Shown piece by piece: positions 1,152-15,600 of a stretch of 64,000 nt of DNA; positions within the stretch are counted from its first letter, which is position 1, and every line of letters starts with the position of its first letter. The translations under genes and the position numbers were made by a program. This DNA is from Halomicrobium urmianum (lineage in GTDB: Archaea; Halobacteriota; Halobacteria; Halobacteriales; Haloarculaceae). The notes below the pieces were generated by a model, which was not told the DNA's origin, made no database searches, and was given only the letters and a program-made list of their open reading frames with translations. The DNA lies in assembly GCF_020217425.1 (NCBI RefSeq), contig NZ_CP084090.1:1178001-1242000 (forward strand), in the 5' to 3' direction.

Positions 1152-3050
1152 ATGCCACGAGACAATTCACACACGGACGGATCGCAGGACAGTACCGGAA
1201 CAGGATCGTCGTTCGTTCCCCGTCGGAGCCTGATACAGAGCCTGAGCGCGATCGGCCTGGGCGGTTTCGTCGGGAACACCGCTTCGGGACAGTCGCACTC
1301 GCTCCGCGGCGAGACCAGGGCAGTACAGGACGCGCAGGCGACGGCGTCGTCTCCTGATCTCGCCAGGTGGGTCGACGAGGTCCCGCGCCCCGGCGTCATC
1401 GAACCGACGGGGACGAAGGACGGCCAGCCCTACTACGAGGTCGAAATGCGGGAGGTCGAGCAGAGCCTCCACCGTGACCTCCCACCGACGACGGTCTGGG
1501 GATACGACGGCCAGTACCCCGGGCCCACGATCGAAGCCCGGCGGGGCGAACCAGTCTACGTCCGGTGGGAGAACAAGTTGCCCGACGAGCACCTGCTGCC
1601 CGTCGACACGACGATCCACGGCGACGAAGTCCCGTACGACTCGACCGGGGTCAGGGTCGTCACGCACCTCCACGGCGGGAACGTCGAGCACACGAGCGAC
1701 GGGAAGCCACAGGCGTGGTTCACGCGGGACTTCGAGGAGACGGGGCCGAAGTTCGAGAAGAAAGACTACTACTACGTCAACGACCAGCCGGCCGCGACGC
1801 TGTGGTACCACGACCACTCCCTCGGGATTACTCGACTGAACGTCTACGCGGGGCTCGCCGGCTTCTACCTGCTCCGGTCCGATCGGGAGGACGAGCTCGG
1901 CCTCCCCGCCGGTGAGTACGAGATCCCGCTCGTCCTGCAGGACAGGACGTTCAACGACGACGGGAGCCTCTTCTATCCGACGGGACCGAGCGACGGCGAC
2001 GGATCGACACCCGACCCGAGTATCGTCCCGCAGTTCTACGGCGACACGTCCGTCGTCAACGGGAAGGCCTGGCCGCGATTGACCGTCGAGCCTCGATCGT
2101 ATCGACTTCGGTTACTCAACGGGTCGAACAGCCGGTTCTACAACCTGAAGCTCGTCGAGTACGACGAGGCGGCGGGGACGACGGGGGCGGACGGTCCGCC
2201 TCTCACCCTCATCGGGAACGACGGCGGACTCCTCGCGCAACCGCGACAGGTCGACGGTCGCCTGCAACTCGGGTCGAGCGGTCGCGCCGACGTCGTCGTC
2301 GACTTCTCCGACTACGCCGGCTCGACGCTGCTCCTCCACAACGACGCGCCCGCGGAGTTCCGCGGATCGGTCGCCACCGACGACGACGTCGAACCGCTGC
2401 CGGAGGTGCTGCTCATCGACGTCGAGGACGCTTCGGACGGCGACGACACGAGTCAGGTTCCGAGCTCCCTCGGTCGAGTGCCCGAGATCCCGGTCGAATC
2501 GGCGGACCGGAACCGCCACGTCACGCTGGCGACGCAGTCGGACGAGTACGGTCGCCTGTTACACCTCCTCGGAACGGGTGAGGAACCGCTGGGGAACCGG
2601 CTCTACGACCCGGCGACCGAGACGCCCCGGAAGGGGACGACGGAGATCTGGAGCATCGCTAACCTCACCGGGATGTCTCATCCCATCCACCTCCATCTCG
2701 TCCACTTCCAGGTGCTCGGTCACCAGTCCTACAGCGACTTCGACCCCGAGGCGGACTCCGTCGATCCCGAGACGCTCTCGCCGCCGAAGCAGGGAGAACG
2801 GGGATGGAACGACGTCGTCACCGTCGACCCCGGCCAGGTCACGCACGTCATCGTCCACTTCGGGGAGTACGAGGGGCTGTTCAACGACCAGACCGGCTGG
2901 TACATGTGGCACTGCCACATGCTCGAACACGAGGATCACGACATGATGCGTCCGCTCCGGGTACTGCCCGAGAAGGACGACGACGACGAGACGTGTGAGT
3001 TCCCGGCAGACGACTCCAACCGTAACGACGGCGGCCCGATCTTCGAGTAG
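1152..3050 (+). CDS. Tat-exported multicopper oxidase (laccase/CotA-like)
   Basis: 632 aa. The N-terminus has a twin-arginine-like signal (PRRSLIQSLSAIGLGGF, residues about 19-35), so export through the Tat pathway is expected. All four copper-ligand motifs of the multicopper oxidase family are present: THLHGG (about 171-176), WYHDH (218-222), HPIHLH (about 510-515) and HCHMLEHE (587-594), followed by Met residues typical of the type 1 copper site. The domain layout, with ligands at both ends, fits the three-cupredoxin CotA/bilirubin oxidase/laccase group. Family members oxidise phenols, bilirubin or metal ions with reduction of O2 to water; haloarchaeal laccases such as LccA are known. The substrate here cannot be read from sequence. 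The gene stands alone. Confidence 0.92.
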   Translation: MPRDNSHTDGSQDSTGTGSSFVPRRSLIQSLSAIGLGGFVGNTASGQSHSLRGETRAVQDAQATASSPDLARWVDEVPRPGVIEPTGTKDGQPYYEVEMREVEQSLHRDLPPTTVWGYDGQYPGPTIEARRGEPVYVRWENKLPDEHLLPVDTTIHGDEVPYDSTGVRVVTHLHGGNVEHTSDGKPQAWFTRDFEETGPKFEKKDYYYVNDQPAATLWYHDHSLGITRLNVYAGLAGFYLLRSDREDELGLPAGEYEIPLVLQDRTFNDDGSLFYPTGPSDGDGSTPDPSIVPQFYGDTSVVNGKAWPRLTVEPRSYRLRLLNGSNSRFYNLKLVEYDEAAGTTGADGPPLTLIGNDGGLLAQPRQVDGRLQLGSSGRADVVVDFSDYAGSTLLLHNDAPAEFRGSVATDDDVEPLPEVLLIDVEDASDGDDTSQVPSSLGRVPEIPVESADRNRHVTLATQSDEYGRLLHLLGTGEEPLGNRLYDPATETPRKGTTEIWSIANLTGMSHPIHLHLVHFQVLGHQSYSDFDPEADSVDPETLSPPKQGERGWNDVVTVDPGQVTHVIVHFGEYEGLFNDQTGWYMWHCHMLEHEDHDMMRPLRVLPEKDDDDETCEFPADDSNRNDGGPIFE

Positions 3051-3194
3051 CCGCCCCAGTCTCCGCTCACACAGACCGACCGTCGATTCACAGCGGGATC
3101 GCCGCAGTCCGATCGGGGTTTGGTTTCTGGATACCTACGAACGGCATGCGTCCCACGGAGGAGTCCGCGCCGTCAGGGCAGAGAAGACGTCGAC

Positions 3195-4046
3195 CTAGTC
3201 GACGTACCGTTCGAGGGCGTCGATCGCCGCTTTCGCCGCCGCGTCTGGCTCGTCGGGATACGTGTACAGTTCGAGCGTTGCGAAGCCGTCGTAGCCGATG
3301 TCGTCGAGGGCGGCGAACATCGCGTCGAAGTCCAGGTCCCCCTCGCCGGGAATCTTGTGATAGTGTTTCCCGCGTCGACCGCCGTCGATGTCTTCGAGGT
3401 GAACGCCGGTGATATTGCCGGCGCACTGACGGATGCTCTCGGCGGGGTCCTCGCCGTACACTGCCGCGTGTCCGACGTCGAGGTTGACGCCGAGCGCGTC
3501 GCTCCCGACGTCGTCGACGAGCTCCATCACTTCGTCAGTGCACTCCACGAGCAGTTCCGGTTCGTACTCGATACCCACTGAGACGCCCTCCGTTTCCGCG
3601 TAGTCCGTGATCTCTGCGAGCGATTCGAGGAGATACTCTCTCGCCTGCTCGGGCGGGTTGCCCGGCAGCGGGCGACCGGTCGCGACGCAGACTGCCGGGG
3701 CGTCGACCGCCGAAGCGAGGTCGATTGCCTGCTTCGTGTAATCCACCCGCCAAGCACGCTCCTCTTCGTCCGACGTGATGATGGTCGGATCGAAGAACGC
3801 GGACGGCGGCGCGTCGTCATAGTACCCGACCGTCGTGTTCGCGTTGATGTTCGAGACGGCGAGCCCGGTCTCGGCGAGCGCCGTTACGAGCGCGTCACGG
3901 TTCTCTGCGTCGAACTCGGGGAGGTAGGCGTGCGGCTCGTCGGCCAGGAGTTCCACTCCGTCATAGCCGTGGTCGGCGATTCGTCTGACAGCGTCAGGCA
4001 GGTCGAATCGGGTGTACGCGTTGGTAGAGAACGCCAGGCGAACCAT
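3195..4046 (-). CDS. Xylose-isomerase-like TIM-barrel protein (EboE-like paralogue 1)
   Basis: 283 aa with the AP endonuclease 2/sugar phosphate isomerase-epimerase fold: an N-terminal FSTNAYTRFDLPDAVRRIAD strand-helix, the GYDGVELLAD motif at about 28-37, ESLAEI and GIEYEPELL strands, NLDVGHA and a C-terminal GYDGFATLELY motif. Glu and His/Asp residues in these strands are the usual metal ligands. It is clearly paralogous to the protein at 5084-5959 (shared FSxNAxxxxxLxxAxxxxAD, GYDGVELLxDEPH, LxVSNxNA). Its own TATA box lies just upstream (4068-4078). The neighbouring prenyltransferase, hydrolase and inositol phosphate synthase suggest it handles a sugar or cyclitol intermediate; the substrate is unknown. 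Confidence 0.85.
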   Translation of the reverse strand: MVRLAFSTNAYTRFDLPDAVRRIADHGYDGVELLADEPHAYLPEFDAENRDALVTALAETGLAVSNINANTTVGYYDDAPPSAFFDPTIITSDEEERAWRVDYTKQAIDLASAVDAPAVCVATGRPLPGNPPEQAREYLLESLAEITDYAETEGVSVGIEYEPELLVECTDEVMELVDDVGSDALGVNLDVGHAAVYGEDPAESIRQCAGNITGVHLEDIDGGRRGKHYHKIPGEGDLDFDAMFAALDDIGYDGFATLELYTYPDEPDAAAKAAIDALERYVD

Positions 4047-4067
4047 GTCAATTAGCTACGATCCCCC

Positions 4068-4078
4068 CTATAAAATAG
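4068..4078 (-). promoter_or_regulatory. TATA box for the gene ending at 3195
   Basis: The sequence CTATTTTATAG (read on the minus strand) lies 22-32 bases before the ATG at 4046. This is the spacing expected for an archaeal TATA box driving a leaderless or nearly leaderless transcript. It implies that the last TIM-barrel gene can be transcribed apart from the three genes upstream of it. Confidence 0.5.
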
Positions 4079-4121
4079 TACTGGAAACCCCAATCGAGAC
4101 GGTTATCGGTCTAGGGCCGGG

Positions 4122-5060
4122 TTAGCTGACGTCGAATACTTCTGCGAGGCCGAGCGCCGGGAGAAAGAACGCCGCGACGCAGAGGGCCCAGACCAGAGAG
4201 GTGGTTCCGGCAAACGCGGCGTTCAACGGGACCAGACCCAGTACGCACGCGCCGACCGCCGGACCGATCGTGTCCGGAGAGGGATCGGCGAACGCCGCGG
4301 ACAGCGGCCGACCGATCCACACCACAAACGCGACGAGGAACGCTACTGACGCGAGGGAGTCCAGCGGGAGCGGAGGCGTCGCTACTAGGGCACCGACGAC
4401 GCCGGCCGCTGCGAGCACCCCACCGGCAGCGGCGACGCCCACGCCGCCGCGGCCGCCGACTTCCGTTTCGCCGTCGGCCATGTACGTGACGGCGGCTATG
4501 TACAGCGCCACGACTACCGGTATCGAGACGACGTCCGCCGGCAGCTCCGTCGGACGCAGCGCCACCGTCGTTCCCAGGATGACGTTCGTTCCGCGAGTGC
4601 CGCCCATCGCTAGATGCCCTAGAACCGACCCCTTGAGAACCGCGTCGTAGCCGACGACGAGCAGGGCTAGCACTATCGAAACGACGCCGGCACGCACGCC
4701 GCTGGCGAGGAACGCGATAGAGACCCCACTGAGCAGCAGCGAGGTCCCTAGCAGGAGTGCCCGGAAACGTGAGATAGCTCCGGACGGGATCGGTCGTTCG
4801 GGCCGCTCGTCTGCGTCCACCGGGGCGTCGAAGTAGTCGTTCAGCGTCGTCCCGGCCGCGTACAGCAACATCGACGCGACGGAGAGCCCGACGAGTGACG
4901 ACACGTGAACGGAACGTCCCAGACCCGTGACGATGGCCGCACCGAGGATGACGTCGGGCGGGGCCGTGAAGAGGTTCGGAAGCCGAACGAGTCGGGCGAC
5001 GACAGTGAGGCGTCTGACGAGCCACCGACCGAACTGTTCGTCGCCGCCGTATTCCGTCAT
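4122..5060 (-). CDS. UbiA-family membrane prenyltransferase (EboC-like)
   Basis: 312 aa, about eight to nine membrane segments. The first aspartate-rich motif is NDYFDAPVDADERPERPIPSG (starting near residue 74), the Mg2+/prenyl-diphosphate site of UbiA enzymes; the second region is YDAVLKG followed by MGGTRGTNVILG, close to the RGxNxxLG signature of the EboC subgroup. The enzyme should transfer an isoprenoid chain to a polar or aromatic acceptor at the membrane. I prefer the ATG at 5060 over one at 5126 because the latter overlaps the upstream gene by 43 bases and adds a non-conserved leader. It lies 23 bases downstream of the second TIM-barrel gene, in one operon with the TatD-like hydrolase. 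Acceptor unknown. Confidence 0.88.
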   Translation of the reverse strand: MTEYGGDEQFGRWLVRRLTVVARLVRLPNLFTAPPDVILGAAIVTGLGRSVHVSSLVGLSVASMLLYAAGTTLNDYFDAPVDADERPERPIPSGAISRFRALLLGTSLLLSGVSIAFLASGVRAGVVSIVLALLVVGYDAVLKGSVLGHLAMGGTRGTNVILGTTVALRPTELPADVVSIPVVVALYIAAVTYMADGETEVGGRGGVGVAAAGGVLAAAGVVGALVATPPLPLDSLASVAFLVAFVVWIGRPLSAAFADPSPDTIGPAVGACVLGLVPLNAAFAGTTSLVWALCVAAFFLPALGLAEVFDVS

Positions 5061-5083
5061 TTCAAGGCCGCGGCGAGTGTCGT

Positions 5084-5959
5084 TCAGACCCACCCATGCT
5101 CTTTCAGGAACTCCATGGCGGCCCATGCCGTCTCCGGTGCAGTCTCCTCGTAGGGGTACAGTTCGACGGTCACGAATCCGTCGTATCCACTGTCCTGCAA
5201 CGCCTGGAGGAACCCGTCGATATCCATGCTTCCCTCCCCCAGTTGGGTGTGCTCGTGGGTCCGATCTGCGGGGATGTCCTCGATGTGGTAGTGGCGAGTG
5301 TAGTCGGCCAGCTTGTCGATGATCTGAGCGGGATCCTCGCCGACTGAATAGAAGTGACCCGCGTCGAAGTTACAGCCGACCCGAGGCGAGTCGACGCGGT
5401 CGATAAACTCCAGGAAGTCGTCCGACGTCTCGATCAGCAGCTCCGGTTCCGGTTCGACGAGGATGTCGACGCCGACGTCCTCCGCCGTCTCGGCCGCTGT
5501 CCGGACACCACTGACGAACGCGTCCATCGCTTCGTCTTCCGGTACTCGCTTGGGTATCGGACCTCCGGGGGGAATCGAGATGTGGCTCGCCCCGAGTGCA
5601 GCCGCTGTCCGGAGCGCGTTTTCCGTGTGTTCGATTCGGGCCTGGCGATCGTCGGGCGAATACTCGACAAATGACGGATGGTGGAAGTCTTCGGTGTCAC
5701 GACTGTACTCGGACGAGCGAATCTCGTCCGAGAGGTCGATCGCGCTGAGCATGAATGCGTTGCAGTTGCTGACGGACAGACCGTAGTTCGTCAGCCGCCG
5801 TCGAACGTCCGCGATATCGTTCTCGTCTACGGCACCGGGAAAGAGGTGCGGTTCATCGAGCAGTAGCTCGACGCCATCGTATCCGATGTCTGCGAGTACC
5901 GCCAGGGCCTCGTCCAGTTCGTGCTGCCGAAACGCGTTCATTGAGAAGCCGAATTCCAT
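5084..5959 (-). CDS. Xylose-isomerase-like TIM-barrel protein (EboE-like paralogue 2)
   Basis: 291 aa, same fold as the 3195-4046 product: MEFGFSMNAFRQHELDEALA at the start, GYDGVELLLDEPHLFPG, VSNCNAF, HISIPPGGPIP, a LVEPEPELLIE strand, VGCNFDAGHFYSVGEDP and the closing GYDGFVTVELYPYEET. The conserved Glu/Asp/His positions of sugar phosphate isomerase-epimerases are kept. The start codon follows the hydrolase stop by only 2 bases, so the genes are co-transcribed. In bacterial ebo clusters an EboE TIM barrel sits beside a TatD hydrolase and a UbiA enzyme, and the same trio occurs here. Role inferred from context; the reaction is not known. Confidence 0.86.
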   Translation of the reverse strand: MEFGFSMNAFRQHELDEALAVLADIGYDGVELLLDEPHLFPGAVDENDIADVRRRLTNYGLSVSNCNAFMLSAIDLSDEIRSSEYSRDTEDFHHPSFVEYSPDDRQARIEHTENALRTAAALGASHISIPPGGPIPKRVPEDEAMDAFVSGVRTAAETAEDVGVDILVEPEPELLIETSDDFLEFIDRVDSPRVGCNFDAGHFYSVGEDPAQIIDKLADYTRHYHIEDIPADRTHEHTQLGEGSMDIDGFLQALQDSGYDGFVTVELYPYEETAPETAWAAMEFLKEHGWV

Positions 5960-5961
5960 GG

Positions 5962-6768
5962 TTAAATCTCGTAGGTGAAGTTCGGTGACTGGTCAAAGAA
6001 GTCGTACGGGTTCTCGAGAACGACCTTGCGGACGTCCTCTCGATCCCACCCCCGATCGAGCATCTTGTCCCGGGCTTTCGGGACCGCGAGCGGGTCCGAC
6101 GGGTCCCAGTCTGCGGCACTATTGAAGAGCATCTTGTCGGTTCCGTGCTCCTCGAGCAGGTCTATCGCGGTATCGGCGTCTATCTTCCCCGGATACAGCG
6201 TGAATCCGATCCAGCAGTCGGTCTGCGTGCTGATGTCGATGGTGTTCTCCGTGTTGTGATCGATGACGATGCGCTCCTGAGTCACGTCTTCGTCCTCGAT
6301 TATGTCAACGATCCGTTTCGTCCCCTCGGGCTTGTCCGTGTGCGGCGTGTGGATGATTACGGGCAGTTCACGCTCCTCGGCCATGCGAAGCTGCCGCCTG
6401 AAGGCGTACTCTTCCGCTTCCGTGCCCTGGTCGAACCCGATTTCGCCGACACCGACGACGTTGTCACGATCGAGGTAGTCGGGGATGCGGTCCAGGACGC
6501 GCTCGGCCATCTCTTCGTAGTTCGCCTCCTTCGGCTCGAGCCCGATCGTCACGTAGTGGTCGACCCCGGCGGCGCGCTCGGCCCGACGCGTCTCGAAGTC
6601 GATGATCTGCTCGAAGTAATCGAAGAACGATCCCGCATTCTGCTTGTCTGTCCCGCTCCAGAAGGCCGGTTCTATGCAACACTCGACGCCAGCTAACCGT
6701 GCACGTTCGTAGTCGTTCGTCGAACGCGACACCATGTGCATGTGCGGGTCGATTATCGGTATCGACAT
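5962..6768 (-). CDS. TatD-family metal-dependent hydrolase (EboB-like)
   Basis: 268 aa. The amidohydrolase-fold signatures are visible: DPHMHM (His9, His11), GEIGFD (108-113) with the ligand Glu, VIIHTPH, a central VIDHN and a C-terminal NSAADWDPSDP. TatD-family enzymes are metal-dependent hydrolases; this subgroup has a long N-terminal insertion (FWSGTDKQNAGSFFDYFEQI) typical of the EboB branch rather than of DNase-like TatD. It is the first gene of the minus-strand operon, with a TATA-like sequence 23-32 bases upstream. It probably acts on a phosphorylated or esterified intermediate of the prenyl-cyclitol pathway proposed for the cluster. Substrate unknown. Confidence 0.85.
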   Translation of the reverse strand: MSIPIIDPHMHMVSRSTNDYERARLAGVECCIEPAFWSGTDKQNAGSFFDYFEQIIDFETRRAERAAGVDHYVTIGLEPKEANYEEMAERVLDRIPDYLDRDNVVGVGEIGFDQGTEAEEYAFRRQLRMAEERELPVIIHTPHTDKPEGTKRIVDIIEDEDVTQERIVIDHNTENTIDISTQTDCWIGFTLYPGKIDADTAIDLLEEHGTDKMLFNSAADWDPSDPLAVPKARDKMLDRGWDREDVRKVVLENPYDFFDQSPNFTYEI

Positions 6769-6790
6769 ACGAACGACATGAGAACCGTAG

Positions 6791-6800
6791 TATAACTATC
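6791..6800 (-). promoter_or_regulatory. TATA box of the ebo-like operon
   Basis: GATAGTTATA on the minus strand lies 23-32 bases before the ATG at 6768, with an A/T-rich flank. The position fits an archaeal core promoter with almost no 5' leader for the TatD-TIM barrel-UbiA operon. Confidence 0.45.
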
Positions 6801-6907
6801 TTTTTCTAGCGTCGTTGTCTCGCCATTTACTAGAGGTTGGCATTCTCCCGTGCTTTCACGGCACCCTGCAGTAATTTCATGCCCGTCGGATCAGTACCCC
6901 CTCTAGC

Positions 6908-7117
6908 ATGCCCGAGTACTGCCCCCACTGTGGTCAGCCAGTCAGCTCAGTCCGGAGGGAGTCCGACGACGGCCCTGCGACTGAAGTATGGCAGTGTGCG
7001 GACTGTGACGAGAAGTGGCGCCATCCCGAAGAGACCGTGCTCAATCGAGAGCTAGACTTTAGCAAAGAGAAGGATCAGATATCGCGACGCGATTCAGATA
7101 CGGATCTCAGCTGGTAG
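6908..7117 (+). CDS. Zinc-ribbon mini-protein
   Basis: 69 aa beginning MPEYCPHCGQPVSSV. Two CxxC pairs (CPHC at 5-8 and CADC at about 30-33, followed by EKWRHPEE) form a typical zinc ribbon. The remainder is polar and charged (SKEKDQISRRDSDTD). It lies in the short divergent gap between the ebo-like operon and the inositol phosphate synthase gene. Such haloarchaeal zinc-finger micro-proteins are common and act as regulators or protein-protein adaptors in the few studied cases. Its placement suggests a link to the cluster, but that is inference. Confidence 0.7.
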   Translation: MPEYCPHCGQPVSSVRRESDDGPATEVWQCADCDEKWRHPEETVLNRELDFSKEKDQISRRDSDTDLSW

Positions 7118-7225
7118 CAAACGCGGGAGAATCCGGAGATGGAGGCGTTGTCGGCCAGAATACGACCGGTTTGAATCGTTCAGGCGGGCGTAACCCTTTT
7201 CAAACACTGTGTCAAGTCCCCTACT

Positions 7226-8413
7226 ATGTCAACCGGTGTCTGGTTAGTGGGTGCGAGAGGCAACGTGGCCAGTACGGCGATCACGGGCGCACGAGCGATA
7301 GCCAGGGGGGCCGTCGACGGGACTGGAATGGTCACCGAGGTCGAACCGATCGCGTCGCTCGACCTCCCCGAGGTCGACCAGCTCGTCTTCGGTGGACACG
7401 ACATCCAGACCCAGAGCATCGAGGAAACGGTGGAGCAGGCACACCGGGACGGGGGCGTTCCCGACCGAGAGACCCTCGACGCGGTACGCGAGGACCTCCG
7501 TGAGATCGACGACCGAGTGAACATCGGAACAGCCAGGCAATGCGGAGAGACGATCGAGAACCTGTCGGACGGTACTGAGACGGGCGAGGAATCGCTCTCC
7601 GGAATCGTGTCGCGGATCCGAGACGACTACGCGAGCTTCGTCCGGGACCACGGGCTCGACCGGCTCGTCGTAGTTAACGTCTCCTCGACCGAACCGCCGA
7701 TGGACGAGCCCGAGCGATACGCGTCGCTCGCGGATTTCGAGGCGGCGATCGAGGACGACGACCCGGACCTTCCCGCGAGCACGCTGTACGCCTATTCGGC
7801 GCTCGTTGACGGCCACCCGTACGTGAACTTCACGCCGAGTACCGGATCGGCGCTCGGCGGGCTCCGCGAACTGGCCGAACAGAACGACGTCCCGCATATG
7901 GGTCGAGACGGGAAAACCGGCGAGACGCTCGTCAAGTCGGCTCTCGCCCCGATGTTTGCGGGACGCAATCTCCGGGTCCTCTCCTGGGAAGGCCACAACA
8001 TCCTCGGAAACACCGACGGTCTCGTCCTCGAGGACGACGACAACAAGGCCGGAAAGGTCGCCAGTAAGGGCAACCTGTTAGAGGAGATCCTCGGATACGA
8101 TACGCACAACGCTGTGCGCATCGACTACACCCCGTCGCTCGGTGACTGGAAGACCGCCTGGGATCACATCCACTTTCAGGGGTTCCTCGAGACGGAGATG
8201 AAGATGCAGTTCACGTGGGAGGGGTCGGACTCGGCGCTAGCGGCACCGCTGGTTCTGGATCTGGCTCGTCTCGTCGCACACGCCGACGAACACGGTGACG
8301 GCGGCTGTCAGCCACAGCTCGCATCGTTCTTCAAGTCACCACAGGAAGTAGACGAGCACGACCTGTCCCGCCAGCTGGAGCTACTGTACGACTACGCCGA
8401 ACAACATCGATAG
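7226..8413 (+). CDS. Inositol-3-phosphate synthase (1L-myo-inositol-1-phosphate synthase family)
   Basis: 395 aa, the size of archaeal members. An N-terminal Rossmann motif (WLVGARGNVAST, residues 6-17) binds NAD; the catalytic half shows SWEGHNILGNTDG, DDDNKAGKVASKG, the YTPSLGDWKTAWDHIHFQGF segment and FTWEGSDSALAAPLVLDL, all family hallmarks. The enzyme converts glucose 6-phosphate to inositol 1-phosphate by NAD-dependent oxidation, ring closure and reduction. It faces the divergent operon of TatD-like, TIM-barrel and UbiA-like genes. In bacterial ebo clusters a different sugar-phosphate cyclase (EboD) holds this place, so this gene could supply the cyclitol core. Alternative role: inositol phospholipid or compatible solute synthesis. 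Confidence 0.93.
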   Translation: MSTGVWLVGARGNVASTAITGARAIARGAVDGTGMVTEVEPIASLDLPEVDQLVFGGHDIQTQSIEETVEQAHRDGGVPDRETLDAVREDLREIDDRVNIGTARQCGETIENLSDGTETGEESLSGIVSRIRDDYASFVRDHGLDRLVVVNVSSTEPPMDEPERYASLADFEAAIEDDDPDLPASTLYAYSALVDGHPYVNFTPSTGSALGGLRELAEQNDVPHMGRDGKTGETLVKSALAPMFAGRNLRVLSWEGHNILGNTDGLVLEDDDNKAGKVASKGNLLEEILGYDTHNAVRIDYTPSLGDWKTAWDHIHFQGFLETEMKMQFTWEGSDSALAAPLVLDLARLVAHADEHGDGGCQPQLASFFKSPQEVDEHDLSRQLELLYDYAEQHR

Positions 8414-8927
8414 CGGGCCGTGACTGGCCCCGAGAGCACAGACTCGAGGGCAGCCGGACTATCGTGCTCGATATCGTCGGCTTCTGGACTCGGTCCTCCA
8501 ACAGCAGCGACGCGCCGAACCTACCAGCGTAGCTGGAGGGGCGGCCGACAGCGGAGCTCTGACCACCCCTTCCTGCCGTCACTCGCCCGGCTCAGACGCA
8601 CTGGGAACCAGTCAGGCGCTCGAGATCCGTGGTGACGTCGCTAGCGGCGAACGCGACCGCGACGGACGCGGAGCCCATCTTATAATATATACTTATTACT
8701 AATAGATGTGGTATTTAGATTCAACCCCACTGGTCAACCGTTCGAGACCAGAGACGGGAACTGGACCGCGTCTGGAAACGGAATCGACGGTCGGACTGTC
8801 GAGGCCCCTGAGCCAGTCTTGTGAGGACCGAAGACGGCTGTCCGTTGCGTGGCGCGGTGGTTCTGGTGGCCGTGCACCGTGCAGGAGCGGCGGTCAGCGG
8901 TTCACCACGAACCGTGTCTGAATCGTT

Positions 8928-11011: not shown

Positions 11012-12043
11012 CTACTCGCCCTCGGTCGTCGCACGCGACCGCGACGACGCGACCGTGCCTCTGGACACGTCGACCTGCTCCCCGGGCGCCGCGGCCTGCT
11101 CCCCGGCCGGGTCGATCCGGTCCTCGGACGGGTCGACGCGCTCGGCGAGCCGGCCCGCCGTCGTGGCCAGCACCAGCAGCTGATCGAGGAGGTAGAAGAC
11201 GGCCAGCGTCGGGAGGGACAGGTCGGCGTCGACGTCGGCCTGGACCTCGTCCGCGGAGTCCCGGAGCTGCCCCGGCGAGATCGTCGGCAGGAGCGCGCGC
11301 CAGTCGACGACGGGCCGCGCCTCGAACCGCTCGGGGTACAGCCGCTGGCGCTGCTCGATGCCGCGGCCGATCCGGACGTACTTCCCGATCAACTCGCGCG
11401 CGTTCCGCGCTGGGTGGTACACGGTGACCGACGGCTCGTAGGCCGTCTCGAACCCGGCGGCGTGGACCCGGCGTCCGAACTCCACGTCGCCGGAAGAGAC
11501 GAACCGCTCGTCGAACGGGCCTACCTCTTCCACGACGCGGCGCCGGACGGCCAGACAGCACGTGGGCACGAACCGGTCCCGCCGCAGATCGCGCTCGACG
11601 GTGAACTCCGCGACGTGGTTGTAGGCGACGACCGGGCCCGCGTCGAGCGACTCGTCGATGCGCACGTCGAAGCCCACGTAGTCGGCCTCTTCGAGGGCGT
11701 CCAGCGCCGACGCGAGCCACGTCCGCTCGACGCCCGCGTCGGCGTCGGCGAAGGCGAACACCTCGCCACGCGCCCGCTCGATGCCGGCGTTCCGGGCGGC
11801 GTAGGAGCCCTGTACCTCGTCCTCGACGACGAGGTCGACGAGGTCCGGATGCCGCCGACAGTAGTCCTCGATCACCGACCGCGTCCCGTCCGTCGACCCG
11901 TTGTCCACCGCCAGCACCTCGTACTCCGAGTCCGGGACCGTCTGGTCGGTCACGGCGGAGAGCGTCCGATCGATCCCCGCCGGATCGTTGTACACCGGCA
12001 CTATCACCGACGCCGCGGGCGCATCGTCGTCCGTCTCCCTCAT
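11012..12043 (-). CDS. Family 2 glycosyltransferase
   Basis: 343 aa with a GT-A fold: SVIVPVYNDPAGIDRTLSAV near the start, VLAVDNGSTDGT, GSYAARNAGIERARGEVFAF and FADADAGVERTWL carrying the metal-binding DAD motif. GFDVRIDES and SSGDVEFGRRVHAAGF are acceptor-side segments usual in GT2 enzymes. The C-terminal 80 residues have one weak hydrophobic stretch (FYLLDQLLVLATTAGRLA). It would add a sugar from a nucleotide- or lipid-linked donor to a glycan, probably of a surface glycoprotein or polysaccharide. It is divergent from the flippase gene at 12383, which supports a joint export pathway. Donor and acceptor unknown. Confidence 0.85.
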   Translation of the reverse strand: MRETDDDAPAASVIVPVYNDPAGIDRTLSAVTDQTVPDSEYEVLAVDNGSTDGTRSVIEDYCRRHPDLVDLVVEDEVQGSYAARNAGIERARGEVFAFADADAGVERTWLASALDALEEADYVGFDVRIDESLDAGPVVAYNHVAEFTVERDLRRDRFVPTCCLAVRRRVVEEVGPFDERFVSSGDVEFGRRVHAAGFETAYEPSVTVYHPARNARELIGKYVRIGRGIEQRQRLYPERFEARPVVDWRALLPTISPGQLRDSADEVQADVDADLSLPTLAVFYLLDQLLVLATTAGRLAERVDPSEDRIDPAGEQAAAPGEQVDVSRGTVASSRSRATTEGE

Positions 12044-12382
12044 GCTTCTCCGGATGATCCGACGCCCCGGATATAGTCATACGCCGTCTACCGACCGGTC
12101 GACGGCGGTAGAACGCCTCACGCGGCCGCAACGTCTCCCACGACGGAGACCGACCGACGCCGGGCGGGACTGGGGGAGGCGAAGCCCCCGCGAAGGTCGG
12201 AAGACGCCTCGGGTCTTCCGGGACTGAAAGGGCCTGAGCTCGCTGGCCGTTCACACCCGCAGGAGAGCGTGCTCACGTTCGGCCCGTTCCCACCTGTAGA
12301 CACCCCACTACCAGCGAAGACAGAACGACAACCAGCTGGTAGCGATCACATAACTTTCTCCCGGAGACCACACGGCACAGAC
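12044..12382. other. Divergent intergenic region with a hairpin
   Basis: 339 bp between the glycosyltransferase (minus) and flippase (plus). It includes an inverted repeat GGAAGAC/GTCTTCC at 12199-12219 with a 7-base loop. A GTG-initiated extension of the flippase frame reaches back to 12269, but that part is proline- and charge-rich without family similarity, so I treat it as non-coding. No clear TATA box. Confidence 0.4.
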
Positions 12383-13900
12383 GTGGGACGGACGTCGCGC
12401 CTCGCCGGGGCGGTAGAGACAGTACTGAGGATACTCAGGCCGGGCGATTCGACCCTGGAACGGACCGTCACGAGCGGCGTCTGGCTGTCGCTGCTGACGG
12501 TCACGGACAGGGTCGTCCGCCTCGGACTGTACCTCGTCCTCGCGCGGCTGCTCGCCCCGGAGGAGTTCGGCCTCCTCGGGCTGGGGATGGTCGCGCTGAC
12601 CGTCCTCAGGCGGCTCTCGCGGCTGGGGCTGGACGAAGCGCTGATCCAGCGCGAGGACGACGACGTCGACGCGTACCTTGACACGACGTGGACGCTGACG
12701 GTCGGGCGCGGCCTCGCGCTCGCGGCCGTCGCGTACCTGGTGGCGCCGTTCGTCGCCGAGTTCTTCGCCGAACCCCGCCTGACCGGGATCGTCCGCGTGC
12801 TCGGGTTCGTCCCGCTGCTGGACGGCCTCCGGAACCCCGGCGTGGTGTACTTCCGGAAGCGCCTCGCCTTCCACCGGCAGTTCGTCCACGTCGTCAGCGG
12901 CACGGTCGCCTACGCCGGTACCGCACTCGTCGCGGCAGTGGTCCTCGAGGACGTCTGGGCCCTCGTCGTCGGCGCGGTCGCCGGCCCGGTCGCGCGGACC
13001 CTCGTCTCCCACCGGATCCACGACTACCGGCCGGGATTCGGGTTCGACCCGGACGCGGCGCGCGAGCTACTGGGGTTCGGTAAGTGGATCTTCGGGTCGG
13101 GCGTGGTCCTGCTGGCGCTCAACCAGGGCGACGACGCGATCGTCGGGTGGTTGCTGGGCTCGTCGGCGGTCGGGCTCTACGGGATGGCCTTCCGCCTGTC
13201 CAACGCGCCCGCCACGGAGGTCAGCCACGTCGTCTCCGAGGTGACGTTCCCGGCGTTCTCGGAGGTCCAGGACGACGCGGCCGAGCTGCGGGCGGGCTTC
13301 TTCCGGACACTCAGGGTCGTCGCTGCGCTCGCGCTCCCGATGGCGGTCGGAATCGCGGCTGTGGCGCCGGTGTTCGTCCGCGCCGTCCTCGGCCCGGAGT
13401 GGACGCCCGCGATCGCCGCCATGCGCGTCCTCGCGGTGTGGGGCGCCTTCCGGGCGCTCGTCGCCGCGGTGGGGCCGCTATTCAAGGCCATCGGCCACCC
13501 GGAGTACAGCACCCTGCTTCAGGTCTCCCGGCTCGCCGTCGTCGCGCTCCTGATCTACCCCGCGACGGAGGCCTGGGGGATCACGGGCACCGCGGCCGTC
13601 CTCGTCGCCAGCGCGGTCCTGCAGAACCCCGTCGCCTTCGCCGTCGCGCTGCGGGCCGTCGACGCCCGTCCGCGGCGCTTGCTCCGGGCGCTGGCGGCCC
13701 CCTGTCTCGCCGCCGCCTTCATGGGCAGCGCCGTCCTGCTCGCGGACGCGGCGCTGTCGCCGCTTCCCGGGCTGGTACGGCTCTGTTGTCTCGTCGGCAT
13801 CGGCGTCGCGACGTACGCGGCAACGATTGCCGCCACGACGCAGGTGTGGGACACCGGGCTGGCGGACGACGTCGCCGTCCTGCGGCGGTCGCTGGCGTAG
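12383..13900 (+). CDS. Polysaccharide/oligosaccharide flippase (Wzx-like, MOP superfamily)
   Basis: About 505 aa from the GTG at 12383 (VGRTSRLAGAVETVLRILRP); the frame is open to a GTG at 12269, which would add 38 atypical residues. Around 12-14 hydrophobic segments are visible. The N-terminal TVTSGVWLSLLTVTDRVVRL, LLAPEEFGLLGLGMVAL and LGLDEALIQREDDD are typical of the polysaccharide biosynthesis export family (lipid-linked glycan flippases, RfbX/Wzx type). It would move a lipid-linked oligosaccharide across the membrane. Flanking GT2 genes on both sides and the secreted proteins nearby make a surface-glycan locus the best reading. A role in N-glycan or exopolysaccharide export cannot be told apart. 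Confidence 0.85.
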   Translation: MGRTSRLAGAVETVLRILRPGDSTLERTVTSGVWLSLLTVTDRVVRLGLYLVLARLLAPEEFGLLGLGMVALTVLRRLSRLGLDEALIQREDDDVDAYLDTTWTLTVGRGLALAAVAYLVAPFVAEFFAEPRLTGIVRVLGFVPLLDGLRNPGVVYFRKRLAFHRQFVHVVSGTVAYAGTALVAAVVLEDVWALVVGAVAGPVARTLVSHRIHDYRPGFGFDPDAARELLGFGKWIFGSGVVLLALNQGDDAIVGWLLGSSAVGLYGMAFRLSNAPATEVSHVVSEVTFPAFSEVQDDAAELRAGFFRTLRVVAALALPMAVGIAAVAPVFVRAVLGPEWTPAIAAMRVLAVWGAFRALVAAVGPLFKAIGHPEYSTLLQVSRLAVVALLIYPATEAWGITGTAAVLVASAVLQNPVAFAVALRAVDARPRRLLRALAAPCLAAAFMGSAVLLADAALSPLPGLVRLCCLVGIGVATYAATIAATTQVWDTGLADDVAVLRRSLA

Positions 13901-13946
13901 TCGTCACCACCGCGGTGATCCACGCGCCGTCCGCAGCAGAAACGGT

Positions 13947-14918
13947 CTACTGCGGTTCCGGCCCGCGCAGTGTCCGCGCGATGGCTCGCCGCGAGACCTG
14001 CGCGGGGATCCAGGTGTACTTGCCGCCGAGCAGCGCGAGCAGGTAGCCGTAGGTGCCCAGGCTCGACGGCCGGAGGCGGATCGCCCGCAGCAGGTAGCCC
14101 AGCGCCGCCCGGTGGTAGTCGTTGTCAGCGGCGGAGACGGCGAGTCCGCGACACAGCGTCGCCAGGAAGCGCCGCTCGTAGGACCGGCCCAGTTCGGCCA
14201 CCGCCGGCCGGTGCTTCTCGACCAGCAGCGGGTAGGCGACGTCCCGCTTCTGCCGGAACCCGTCGGAGATCTGCCTCCGCCGAGTGAACTGCCTGACCGT
14301 CAGCGGTTCGGGGACCGCCGTCCAGTCGACGTGTGGCGCGATCGAGAGGTACCAGTCGCGGTCCTGCCAGCAGGGGAACCGCTCGTCGAGGGACCCGAAC
14401 TCGTCGAACACCGAGCGTCGGACCAGCACGGTCGAGAACGTGCCGAAACTGGCGCCGCGGGCGAGGGTCGCGAGGAAGTCTCCGTCGGTCACGGGCCTCG
14501 TGATCCCGGTCACCGCCCCGTCGCCGTCGACGCGCTCCTGGCCGGTGAAGGCGATGGCACAGTCCTCGGAGGCCTCTTCCAGCGCGGCGACCTGTCGCTT
14601 GATCTTCTCCGGCTTCCAGTAGTCGTCGTCGTCGAGGAAGGCGACGTACTCGCCGCTGGCCGCCTCGACGCCGGTGTTCCGCGCCGCGTTCGCCCCCCGG
14701 TTCCCGTCGTGCTGGAACACCCGATGATCGACGAGGCCGTCGAGCGGGACCTCCGCCAGCGCGGCGGTCGGATCCGCATCGGAGCCGTCGTCGACGACGA
14801 TCAGCTCGATCGCGTCGTAGGTCTGGTCGACGACGCTGCGGACGGCGTCGGCCAGCAGCGCCGGCCGGTCGTAGGTGGGCACGACGGCGGTGACTAGCGG
14901 GCGGTCACTGGTTCCCAT
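13947..14918 (-). CDS. Family 2 glycosyltransferase
   Basis: 323 aa from the ATG at 14918 (MGTSDRPLVTAVVPTYDRPA); two GTG codons upstream are possible but less likely. Motifs: VVPTYDRPALLADAV, IVVDDGSDADPT, GANAARNTGVEAASGEYVAF and FLDDDDYWKPEKI with the DDD metal site. LDERFPCWQDRDWYLSI is the conserved acceptor segment. The C-terminal helix-rich part (ERRFLATLCRGLAVSAADND, YLLRAIRLRPSSLGTYGYLL) resembles GT2 enzymes of surface polysaccharide loci. It converges with the flippase gene, ending 47 bases from it. Sugar specificity is not readable. Confidence 0.87.
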   Translation of the reverse strand: MGTSDRPLVTAVVPTYDRPALLADAVRSVVDQTYDAIELIVVDDGSDADPTAALAEVPLDGLVDHRVFQHDGNRGANAARNTGVEAASGEYVAFLDDDDYWKPEKIKRQVAALEEASEDCAIAFTGQERVDGDGAVTGITRPVTDGDFLATLARGASFGTFSTVLVRRSVFDEFGSLDERFPCWQDRDWYLSIAPHVDWTAVPEPLTVRQFTRRRQISDGFRQKRDVAYPLLVEKHRPAVAELGRSYERRFLATLCRGLAVSAADNDYHRAALGYLLRAIRLRPSSLGTYGYLLALLGGKYTWIPAQVSRRAIARTLRGPEPQ

Positions 14919-15600
14919 CACCACCGTCTCCGCTTTCGATCCACTTTGTTAATCTACTTGTACGATCCGACCGGAATCAGTTCGACCGCGGCTACCGCCC
15001 GCGGAGGCGGGCCAGCGAGCCCGAGCGTCAGTGACGAACGCCTCTGACACGGACTGTACGTGCGTACAGCGGGCCCCAGCAGTCGACGTCTCACACGATG
15101 AGAACGATAGTGGTCGAGGGACCCAGCCCCGGATGTCATCCGACTGGGGACGGGTGGTTTCTCTTCGATGCACGGCCGGGCTGACGGACCCGACGGTTCA
15201 CGGATTGGGTATCCTGGTACAAATAAATTATAGTGAAGTATATGGATTCTTACACCACAGCCGGTCGAGCGTCGGTCGGGACGGGGCCGGACGTGCGACT
15301 GCTTCTCGGCGAAGAGTCCGTGGGACGGTGAGCGGGGCTTCCGAGCGCGTAAATCCCGTCGTCGACCGTGCGCCCGCCATCCAGCGTCGTGGTCGCGCTC
15401 TCGCTGTGCTGGACCGTGTGGTCGTCGCCCGGTCCGTCACGGTCGCGACAGTCTTCGATTCTCGGACGACAGCGAGCCACGGACTCCAGCCAACCGCGGC
15501 TTCTCTCGCCCCACACTGACGTCCCGTCAGCGACTACGCCGGGCGACTCGCACCGAAAAAAGAAGTCCCGGTCGGACCCGGGTCGTCGTCGATCGACGCG
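14919..15600. other. Non-coding stretch upstream of glycosyltransferase and downstream of CARDB-like gene
   Basis: 682 bp. An AT-rich block at 15219-15245 (caaataaattatagtgaag) stands out. Open frames on both strands, including 15250-15516 on the minus strand, show no domain; the latter has a stretch resembling a secreted-protein tail and could be a decayed fragment. An A-run (gaaaaaagaag, about 15556-15566) lies beyond the stop of the minus-strand gene at 15601 and, read on that strand, is a T-rich tract usable as an archaeal terminator. Confidence 0.4.

Follow-up and report, generated by a model that had tools for sequence, protein, structure and literature searches.

Known ebo clusters and a haloarchaeal variant

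The canonical ebo clusters (EboA-F, also EDB) are known from Bacteroidota, Cyanobacteria and eustigmatophyte plastids (PMC5133447, PMC6282210). An isoprenoid-cyclitol product has been put forward by Yurchenko et al. for these EboD-type clusters, in which EboB forms a cluster distinct from TatD DNases and EboF belongs to the PF01663 family (PMC5133447). The export of the scytonemin monomer requires ebo in Nostoc punctiforme, the only organism for which a role in periplasmic metabolism or export has been demonstrated (PMC6282210). In vitro, quinoline acids are farnesylated by flavobacterial EboC homologues. Among related systems is the actinomycete cluster of the SCO3242 type; in S. coelicolor, SCO3242/SCO3243 have been assigned to the CDA cluster (PMC3610822). 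In the BE-40644 pathway of Actinoplanes a cyclase-made cyclitol is likewise prenylated by a UbiA enzyme, but the cyclase is a sedoheptulose-7-phosphate cyclase, and the prenyltransferase is of another UbiA lineage (PMC5133447). Here we describe an ebo-type locus of the haloarchaeon Halomicrobium urmianum, located at 3195-8413 of a stretch of 64,000 nucleotides (the window; contig NZ_CP084090.1, positions 1,178,001 to 1,242,000). EboB, EboF, an EboC-like prenyltransferase and the clustering itself are common to the canonical and the haloarchaeal form, and an isoprenoid-cyclitol product is proposed for both. Canonical clusters have the sugar-phosphate cyclase EboD, whereas the haloarchaeal form has an inositol-phosphate synthase (MIPS) and one or more short TIM barrels. 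The MIPS-type cluster is a real and conserved variant of the known ebo system. A partial literature search found no report of MIPS in ebo clusters, or of ebo in haloarchaea, and within that scope the variant is previously unreported.

An earlier note on this DNA had placed in the locus a TatD-family hydrolase, TIM barrels, a UbiA enzyme and MIPS, and all are encoded by uninterrupted open reading frames (Table 1). The hydrolase keeps the separation of EboBs from TatD DNases, and the EboB affinity which the note had supposed was borne out. It scores 318 bits on a profile built from EboBs of EboD-type clusters only, and 44-67 bits on TatD DNase models (67 on Pfam TatD_DNase, PF01026; 43.6 on TIGR00010, under the curated cut-off of 206). 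A DNase-type TatD identity is ruled out by these scores. The protein is 44% identical to the EboB of Aureibacter, and 80-85% identical to its counterparts in 22 other genomes of the order. The metal-ligand positions H, H, E, H, H, D are invariant, and an extended EboB signature is common to the window hydrolase and the EboBs of Bacteroidota, Deinococcus, actinomycetes and Gemmatirosa. Much of the signature is missing in A. fulgidus AF_1765 (PDB 3guw, 146 bits with the EboB profile), a distant relative and the nearest one with a solved structure. In many planctomycete genomes (among L104-L170) EboB is found without other ebo genes nearby, EboA being present or not; its role in these genomes may be older, or separate.

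The UbiA protein (57 bits on Pfam UbiA, PF01040) finds in EboC its best NCBIfam model, as anticipated in the note, with 195.5 bits and a curated cut-off of 250. It obtains 176 bits on a profile from EboCs of EboD-type clusters, and 164 bits on the SCO3242 family (NF045897, curated cut-off 260), of which it is a sister-level relative only. Archaeal-lipid-type and generic archaeal UbiA models give 68-70 bits at best, and an archaeal-lipid or menaquinone-type identity is ruled out by this difference. Because the scores lie under both the EboC and the SCO3242 cut-offs, the protein is, as judged from profiles, a member of a third EboC-like subfamily, and not a called EboC. The N96/D97/D100/D104 motif, R111, R178 and E220 (numbered from the start at 5126) are common to the window protein and bacterial EboC. 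The structure model (pLDDT, predicted local distance difference test, 87.5) has DGGGP synthase and Aeropyrum UbiA as nearest folds.

EboF, a member of the set absent from the list of the earlier note, is encoded in most relatives directly downstream of MIPS, as a PF01663 protein of ~450 aa. In the window genome it resides outside the cluster, ~100 kb before it (G000:C1:1079500-1080885). It reaches 520 bits on the profile of EboD-type EboFs, and sits in the EboF tree among bacterial EboFs together with the EboF of genome G036.

Exchange of EboD for MIPS

Among 195 genomes of the order Halobacteriales, EboB was identified in 23, and EboF (counted as present at >200 bits) in exactly those 23. EboC was found in 22 of them; in the other (G139) the contig ends within the cluster. 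The distribution is patchy, the window genome being the sole carrier within its family sample; clusters were also identified in Halocatena, Halobaculum and Natronococcus. Of the 23 ebo-bearing genomes 21 have MIPS, vs 2 of the 172 others (Fisher 8e-24, a value which ignores phylogeny). In 16 of these 21 the gene lies beside the cluster, within ~10 kb, and 15 of the 16 show a head-to-head orientation, so that the conserved neighbourhood expected by the earlier note does exist. Chance falls far short of explaining the arrangement, which is found again in several families of the order. A search for DHQ-synthase-fold cyclases (PF01761) gave nothing above cut-off in the 23 ebo-bearing haloarchaea, whereas 11 of 14 control genomes matched. 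The 23 genomes therefore lack EboD, and MIPS stands in place of the sugar-phosphate cyclase, as the note had proposed.

The same exchange is seen in Bacteria, surveyed in plasmid-collection records and 80 mostly planctomycete loci. Embleya, Nonomuraea and Streptomyces share the order MIPS, EboC (SCO3242 family), short barrel, EboA, EboB, EboE, EboF, with no EboD. As in haloarchaea, the actinomycete cluster combines MIPS, an EboC-like UbiA protein, a short barrel, EboB and EboF; it differs in keeping EboA and EboE, in the single short barrel, sometimes fused to EboA, and in the MIPS gene being co-directional with the operon. Gemmatirosa has the gene set of the actinomycete MIPS-type cluster, and no EboD. 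The planctomycete locus L173 encodes EboA, EboB, a short barrel, EboC, a second short barrel and MIPS. Short barrels around EboC, with EboB nearby and no EboE or EboD found, also mark the planctomycete loci L121, L142 and L167, but MIPS is in L173 only among the sampled loci, and EboA in L173 and L167. In Deinococcus, Aureibacter and Azospirillum EboD is present, and the short barrel absent.

Fifty-four loci holding EboB, EboC and EboF were compared. EboD and EboE, with neither MIPS nor a short barrel, reside in 21; MIPS and a short barrel, with no EboD, in 23. Seven have a short barrel and no MIPS in reach, two of them being second copies of the same genome. None of the 54 combines EboD with MIPS or a short barrel; similarly, MIPS is found in none of the 16 plasmid records carrying EboD at >290 bits. 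The exchange of EboD for MIPS and a short barrel is thus shown in Halobacteria, Actinomycetota, Gemmatimonadota and Planctomycetota. What the earlier note had presented as an archaeal variant is indeed present in an archaeon, but its restriction to Archaea is ruled out by the actinomycete, gemmatimonad and planctomycete clusters.

The cluster of Gemmatirosa has a mosaic make-up: EboB and EboF fall inside EboD-type clades, EboC groups with the EboCs of actinomycete MIPS-type clusters, and MIPS belongs to the ebo-linked kind. From these groupings MIPS, EboC and the short barrel appear to have entered an EboD-type cluster together, as expected if EboC acts on the product of MIPS and the barrel. 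In Nonomuraea the short barrel is fused to EboA (L093:9822-11294, 491 aa; the EboA part was verified), which ties the barrel to the ebo pathway. Such a fusion has been noted for Actinobacteria, with MIPS unmentioned (PMC5133447). A similar open reading frame of 503 aa is found in Streptomyces NBC_01450 (L202).

A probable C6 cyclitol pathway and its alternatives

The MIPS of the window, the only one in the genome, carries both Pfam domains of the family (NAD_binding_5, 161 bits; Inos-1-P_synth, 119 bits). The nearest solved structure is the A. fulgidus enzyme (1u1i, 314 bits). The catalytic residues of the two are identical (K274, K278, K306, K367 and N255 in A. fulgidus numbering), and the window enzyme is complete by sequence. 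Because of this conservation, synthesis of inositol phosphate is likely. Alternatively, the enzyme may be a MIPS homologue with a changed reaction, making another cyclitol phosphate, perhaps one near the EboD product. A diverged relative with altered ring chemistry exists (five-membered-cyclitol-phosphate synthase, PDB 6k96), and both cluster types share EboB, EboC and EboF as downstream enzymes. Yet 6k96 scores 39 bits as opposed to the 314 of A. fulgidus MIPS, every catalytic position of which is kept, and a changed reaction seems improbable. In the MIPS tree the ebo-linked enzymes of four phyla, the haloarchaeal enzymes linked to glycosyltransferases and A. fulgidus MIPS form a single branch (100/100), outside which other bacterial MIPS fall. 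The second haloarchaeal lineage resides in glycosyltransferase loci devoid of ebo genes (L081, L082, L090, L091, L200), which suggests a role in inositol-containing surface glycans.

Of the two barrels, TIM1 and TIM2, the latter had been likened to EboE in the earlier note, a likeness that did not hold. Against the EboE profile neither barrel exceeds 21-22 bits, where actinobacterial EboEs obtain 347-359, and EboE orthology is ruled out on this ground; they are 283 and 291 aa long, EboE ~400. They match AP_endonuc_2 (PF01261) with 163 (TIM2) and 167 (TIM1) bits, and belong to a separate short-barrel family (sTIM) that accompanies MIPS. TIM2 forms its own clade in the sTIM tree, and its invariant residues include E169, D199 and E266; those of TIM1 are E160, D190, H216 and E259. 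The TIM1 model (pLDDT 90.2) has ketose 3-epimerases, IolI and Art22 as nearest folds. TIM2 is a probable metal-dependent isomerase or epimerase. Fold, metal ligands and the strict co-occurrence with MIPS suggest that the short barrels probably isomerise or epimerise an oxidised cyclitol.

On balance we hold it probable that the locus encodes a pathway of the ebo type with a different enzyme at the cyclitol-forming step, the head group of a membrane-made isoprenoid deriving from glucose-6-phosphate (C6), and not from the sedoheptulose-7-phosphate (C7) proposed so far. In the model, MIPS would convert glucose-6-phosphate into inositol phosphate, as its conserved catalytic residues suggest, and EboF or a housekeeping inositol phosphatase would dephosphorylate this compound. 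One or both short barrels would turn an oxidised cyclitol, by isomerisation or epimerisation, into the acceptor for the downstream enzymes. EboC, in which the motif is present, would attach an isoprenyl chain to the acceptor within the membrane, and EboB may act as a hydrolase or lyase at a conserved step. Such a pathway would yield a prenylated lipid derived from a C6 cyclitol, for use in extracytoplasmic chemistry either as an export carrier, by analogy with the export of the scytonemin monomer, or as a partner of secreted oxidases. That an unrelated cyclitol synthase takes the place of EboD lends independent support to the isoprenoid-cyclitol proposal.

Several observations weigh against this C6 pathway. 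The keto-epimerase chemistry of the barrels needs oxidation of the cyclitol, and the cluster is without a dehydrogenase for that step. The UbiA protein stays below the curated EboC cut-off, and the EboF of the window genome is unlinked and of a lineage other than that usual in haloarchaea. EboE was not found in a whole-genome search, the controls of which were silent too. Two EboA queries gave no match in the haloarchaeal loci, where a diverged copy of this fast-evolving protein, for which EboG is a known substitute, could escape. Closely related MIPS are used by haloarchaea in glycosyltransferase loci as well, and the MIPS of G086 groups with these. In five ebo-bearing genomes MIPS is unlinked or on another contig, and two (G078, locus L080; G194, locus L060) have neither MIPS nor EboD genome-wide. 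G078 and G194 retain EboB, EboC, EboF and both barrels. The glycosyltransferase loci, and the genomes in which MIPS is missing or lies elsewhere, could be explained by hypothesizing that MIPS is an unrelated neighbour, supplying inositol for osmolytes, glycans or lipids, and that the ebo-like operon runs without a cyclitol. Such a hypothesis is highly improbable in view of the biased co-occurrence of MIPS and ebo, their pairing in four phyla and the strict exclusion of EboD.

The cluster, its surroundings and their meaning

Table 1. Genes of the ebo-type locus in the window
Feature	Position	Strand	Remarks
EboB-type metallo-hydrolase (annotated TatD family)	5962-6768	-	first gene of operon
TIM2, short xylose-isomerase-like barrel, sTIM family	5084-5959	-	291 aa
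EboC-like UbiA-superfamily intramembrane prenyltransferase	4122-5060	-	longest open reading frame begins at 5126
TIM1, second short barrel of sTIM family	3195-4046	-	
Zinc-ribbon protein	6908-7117	+	69 aa
Inositol-1-phosphate (inositol-3-phosphate) synthase, archaeal type	7226-8413	+	at the position of EboD

The minus-strand genes follow each other in the order hydrolase, TIM2, UbiA, TIM1, and the zinc-ribbon gene precedes MIPS on the plus strand. The gap between the hydrolase and TIM2 is 2 bp, that between UbiA and TIM1 75 bp. As start of the UbiA gene the ATG at 5060, ~24 bp after TIM2, is likelier than 5126. The zinc-ribbon protein (family F17) matches the Pfam IS1595-type zinc ribbon under cut-off. 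Its family also adjoins MIPS or EboB in three further genomes (L060, L071, L084). With the window genome it thus accompanies MIPS or EboB in four genomes, among them G036, where MIPS is far from the operon. No RNA element was matched by an Rfam search of 3000-8600, and no relative was detected in a single-protein scan of viral contigs.

Just beyond TIM1 resides a multicopper oxidase gene (1152-3050, plus strand) with a Tat-like signal, the best NCBIfam model being o-aminophenol oxidase PhsA (339 bits, under cut-off). Farther away, at 11012-14924, two glycosyltransferase-like genes on the minus strand flank a flippase-like membrane protein on the plus strand, in what resembles a locus for surface glycans. 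Several giant secreted proteins, arranged in tandem and ~1600-1950 aa long, are encoded between EboF and the cluster (L205-L208; G000:C1:1101408-1155611). In the two scanned, domains of the 3-keto-disaccharide hydrolase, GSDH, ThuA and cupredoxin families are found together; malectin/laminin-G and PKD domains are also found. A Bmp/PnrA-type ABC transporter is encoded in the same island (L205:1182-6228); in Halocatena salina such a transporter immediately adjoins the ebo genes (L098:12034-17019).

GSDH (PF07995) domains are on average 5.4 per genome in ebo-bearing haloarchaea vs 1.9 in members of the same families without ebo; the observed value was reached in 0 of 20,000 family-stratified permutations. 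A GSDH gene lies within ~35 kb of the cluster in about half of the ebo-bearing haloarchaea. A Streptomyces MIPS-type cluster is flanked by a multicopper oxidase gene and by a gene of the ScyD/ScyE family; ScyE in Nostoc is a periplasmic beta-propeller protein. A search for PqqC (PQQ biosynthesis) gave no match in ebo-bearing genomes, but the control was equally silent. The extra secreted quinoprotein-type dehydrogenases are a lead to ebo function; the association is a correlation only, which a sugar-scavenging lifestyle could explain.

Taken further, sugar scavenging may account for the operon itself, which would then break down or remodel inositols or keto-sugars. In that case the barrels would be inosose or keto-sugar epimerases, the TatD-like protein a sugar-lactone hydrolase, and UbiA and MIPS side genes, the secreted 3-keto-disaccharide hydrolases serving to scavenge sugars. 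The likeness of the barrels to IolI, IolO and ketose 3-epimerases is in keeping with such a pathway, as are the giant 3-keto-disaccharide hydrolase/GSDH/ThuA proteins and the Bmp-type transporter of the island, and the similar neighbours in Halocatena. The strict co-occurrence of the EboC-type prenyltransferase, EboB and EboF, and the parallel with bacterial ebo clusters, would however be left unexplained, and MIPS makes inositol instead of breaking it. We assign a low probability to a catabolic role. A broader scheme, rather unlikely as it stands, envisages two ebo chemotypes, C7 (EboD) and C6 (MIPS and short barrel), making interchangeable prenylated cyclitol lipids. In haloarchaea these would serve secreted quinoprotein/cupredoxin dehydrogenases of the GSDH family, and ebo would be a general means of providing oxidation outside the cytoplasm with a lipid cofactor or carrier.

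That two unrelated ring-forming enzymes replace each other at one position is independent evidence for a cyclitol as the starting point of the pathway. The exchange makes the idea of a lipid-linked cyclitol testable, as labelled inositol can be purchased and the product traced by feeding. The finding extends ebo, a widespread cluster, to Archaea, and accounts for the presence of MIPS beside SCO3242-type prenyltransferases in actinomycetes. It also points to a link between ebo and secreted sugar-oxidising enzymes.

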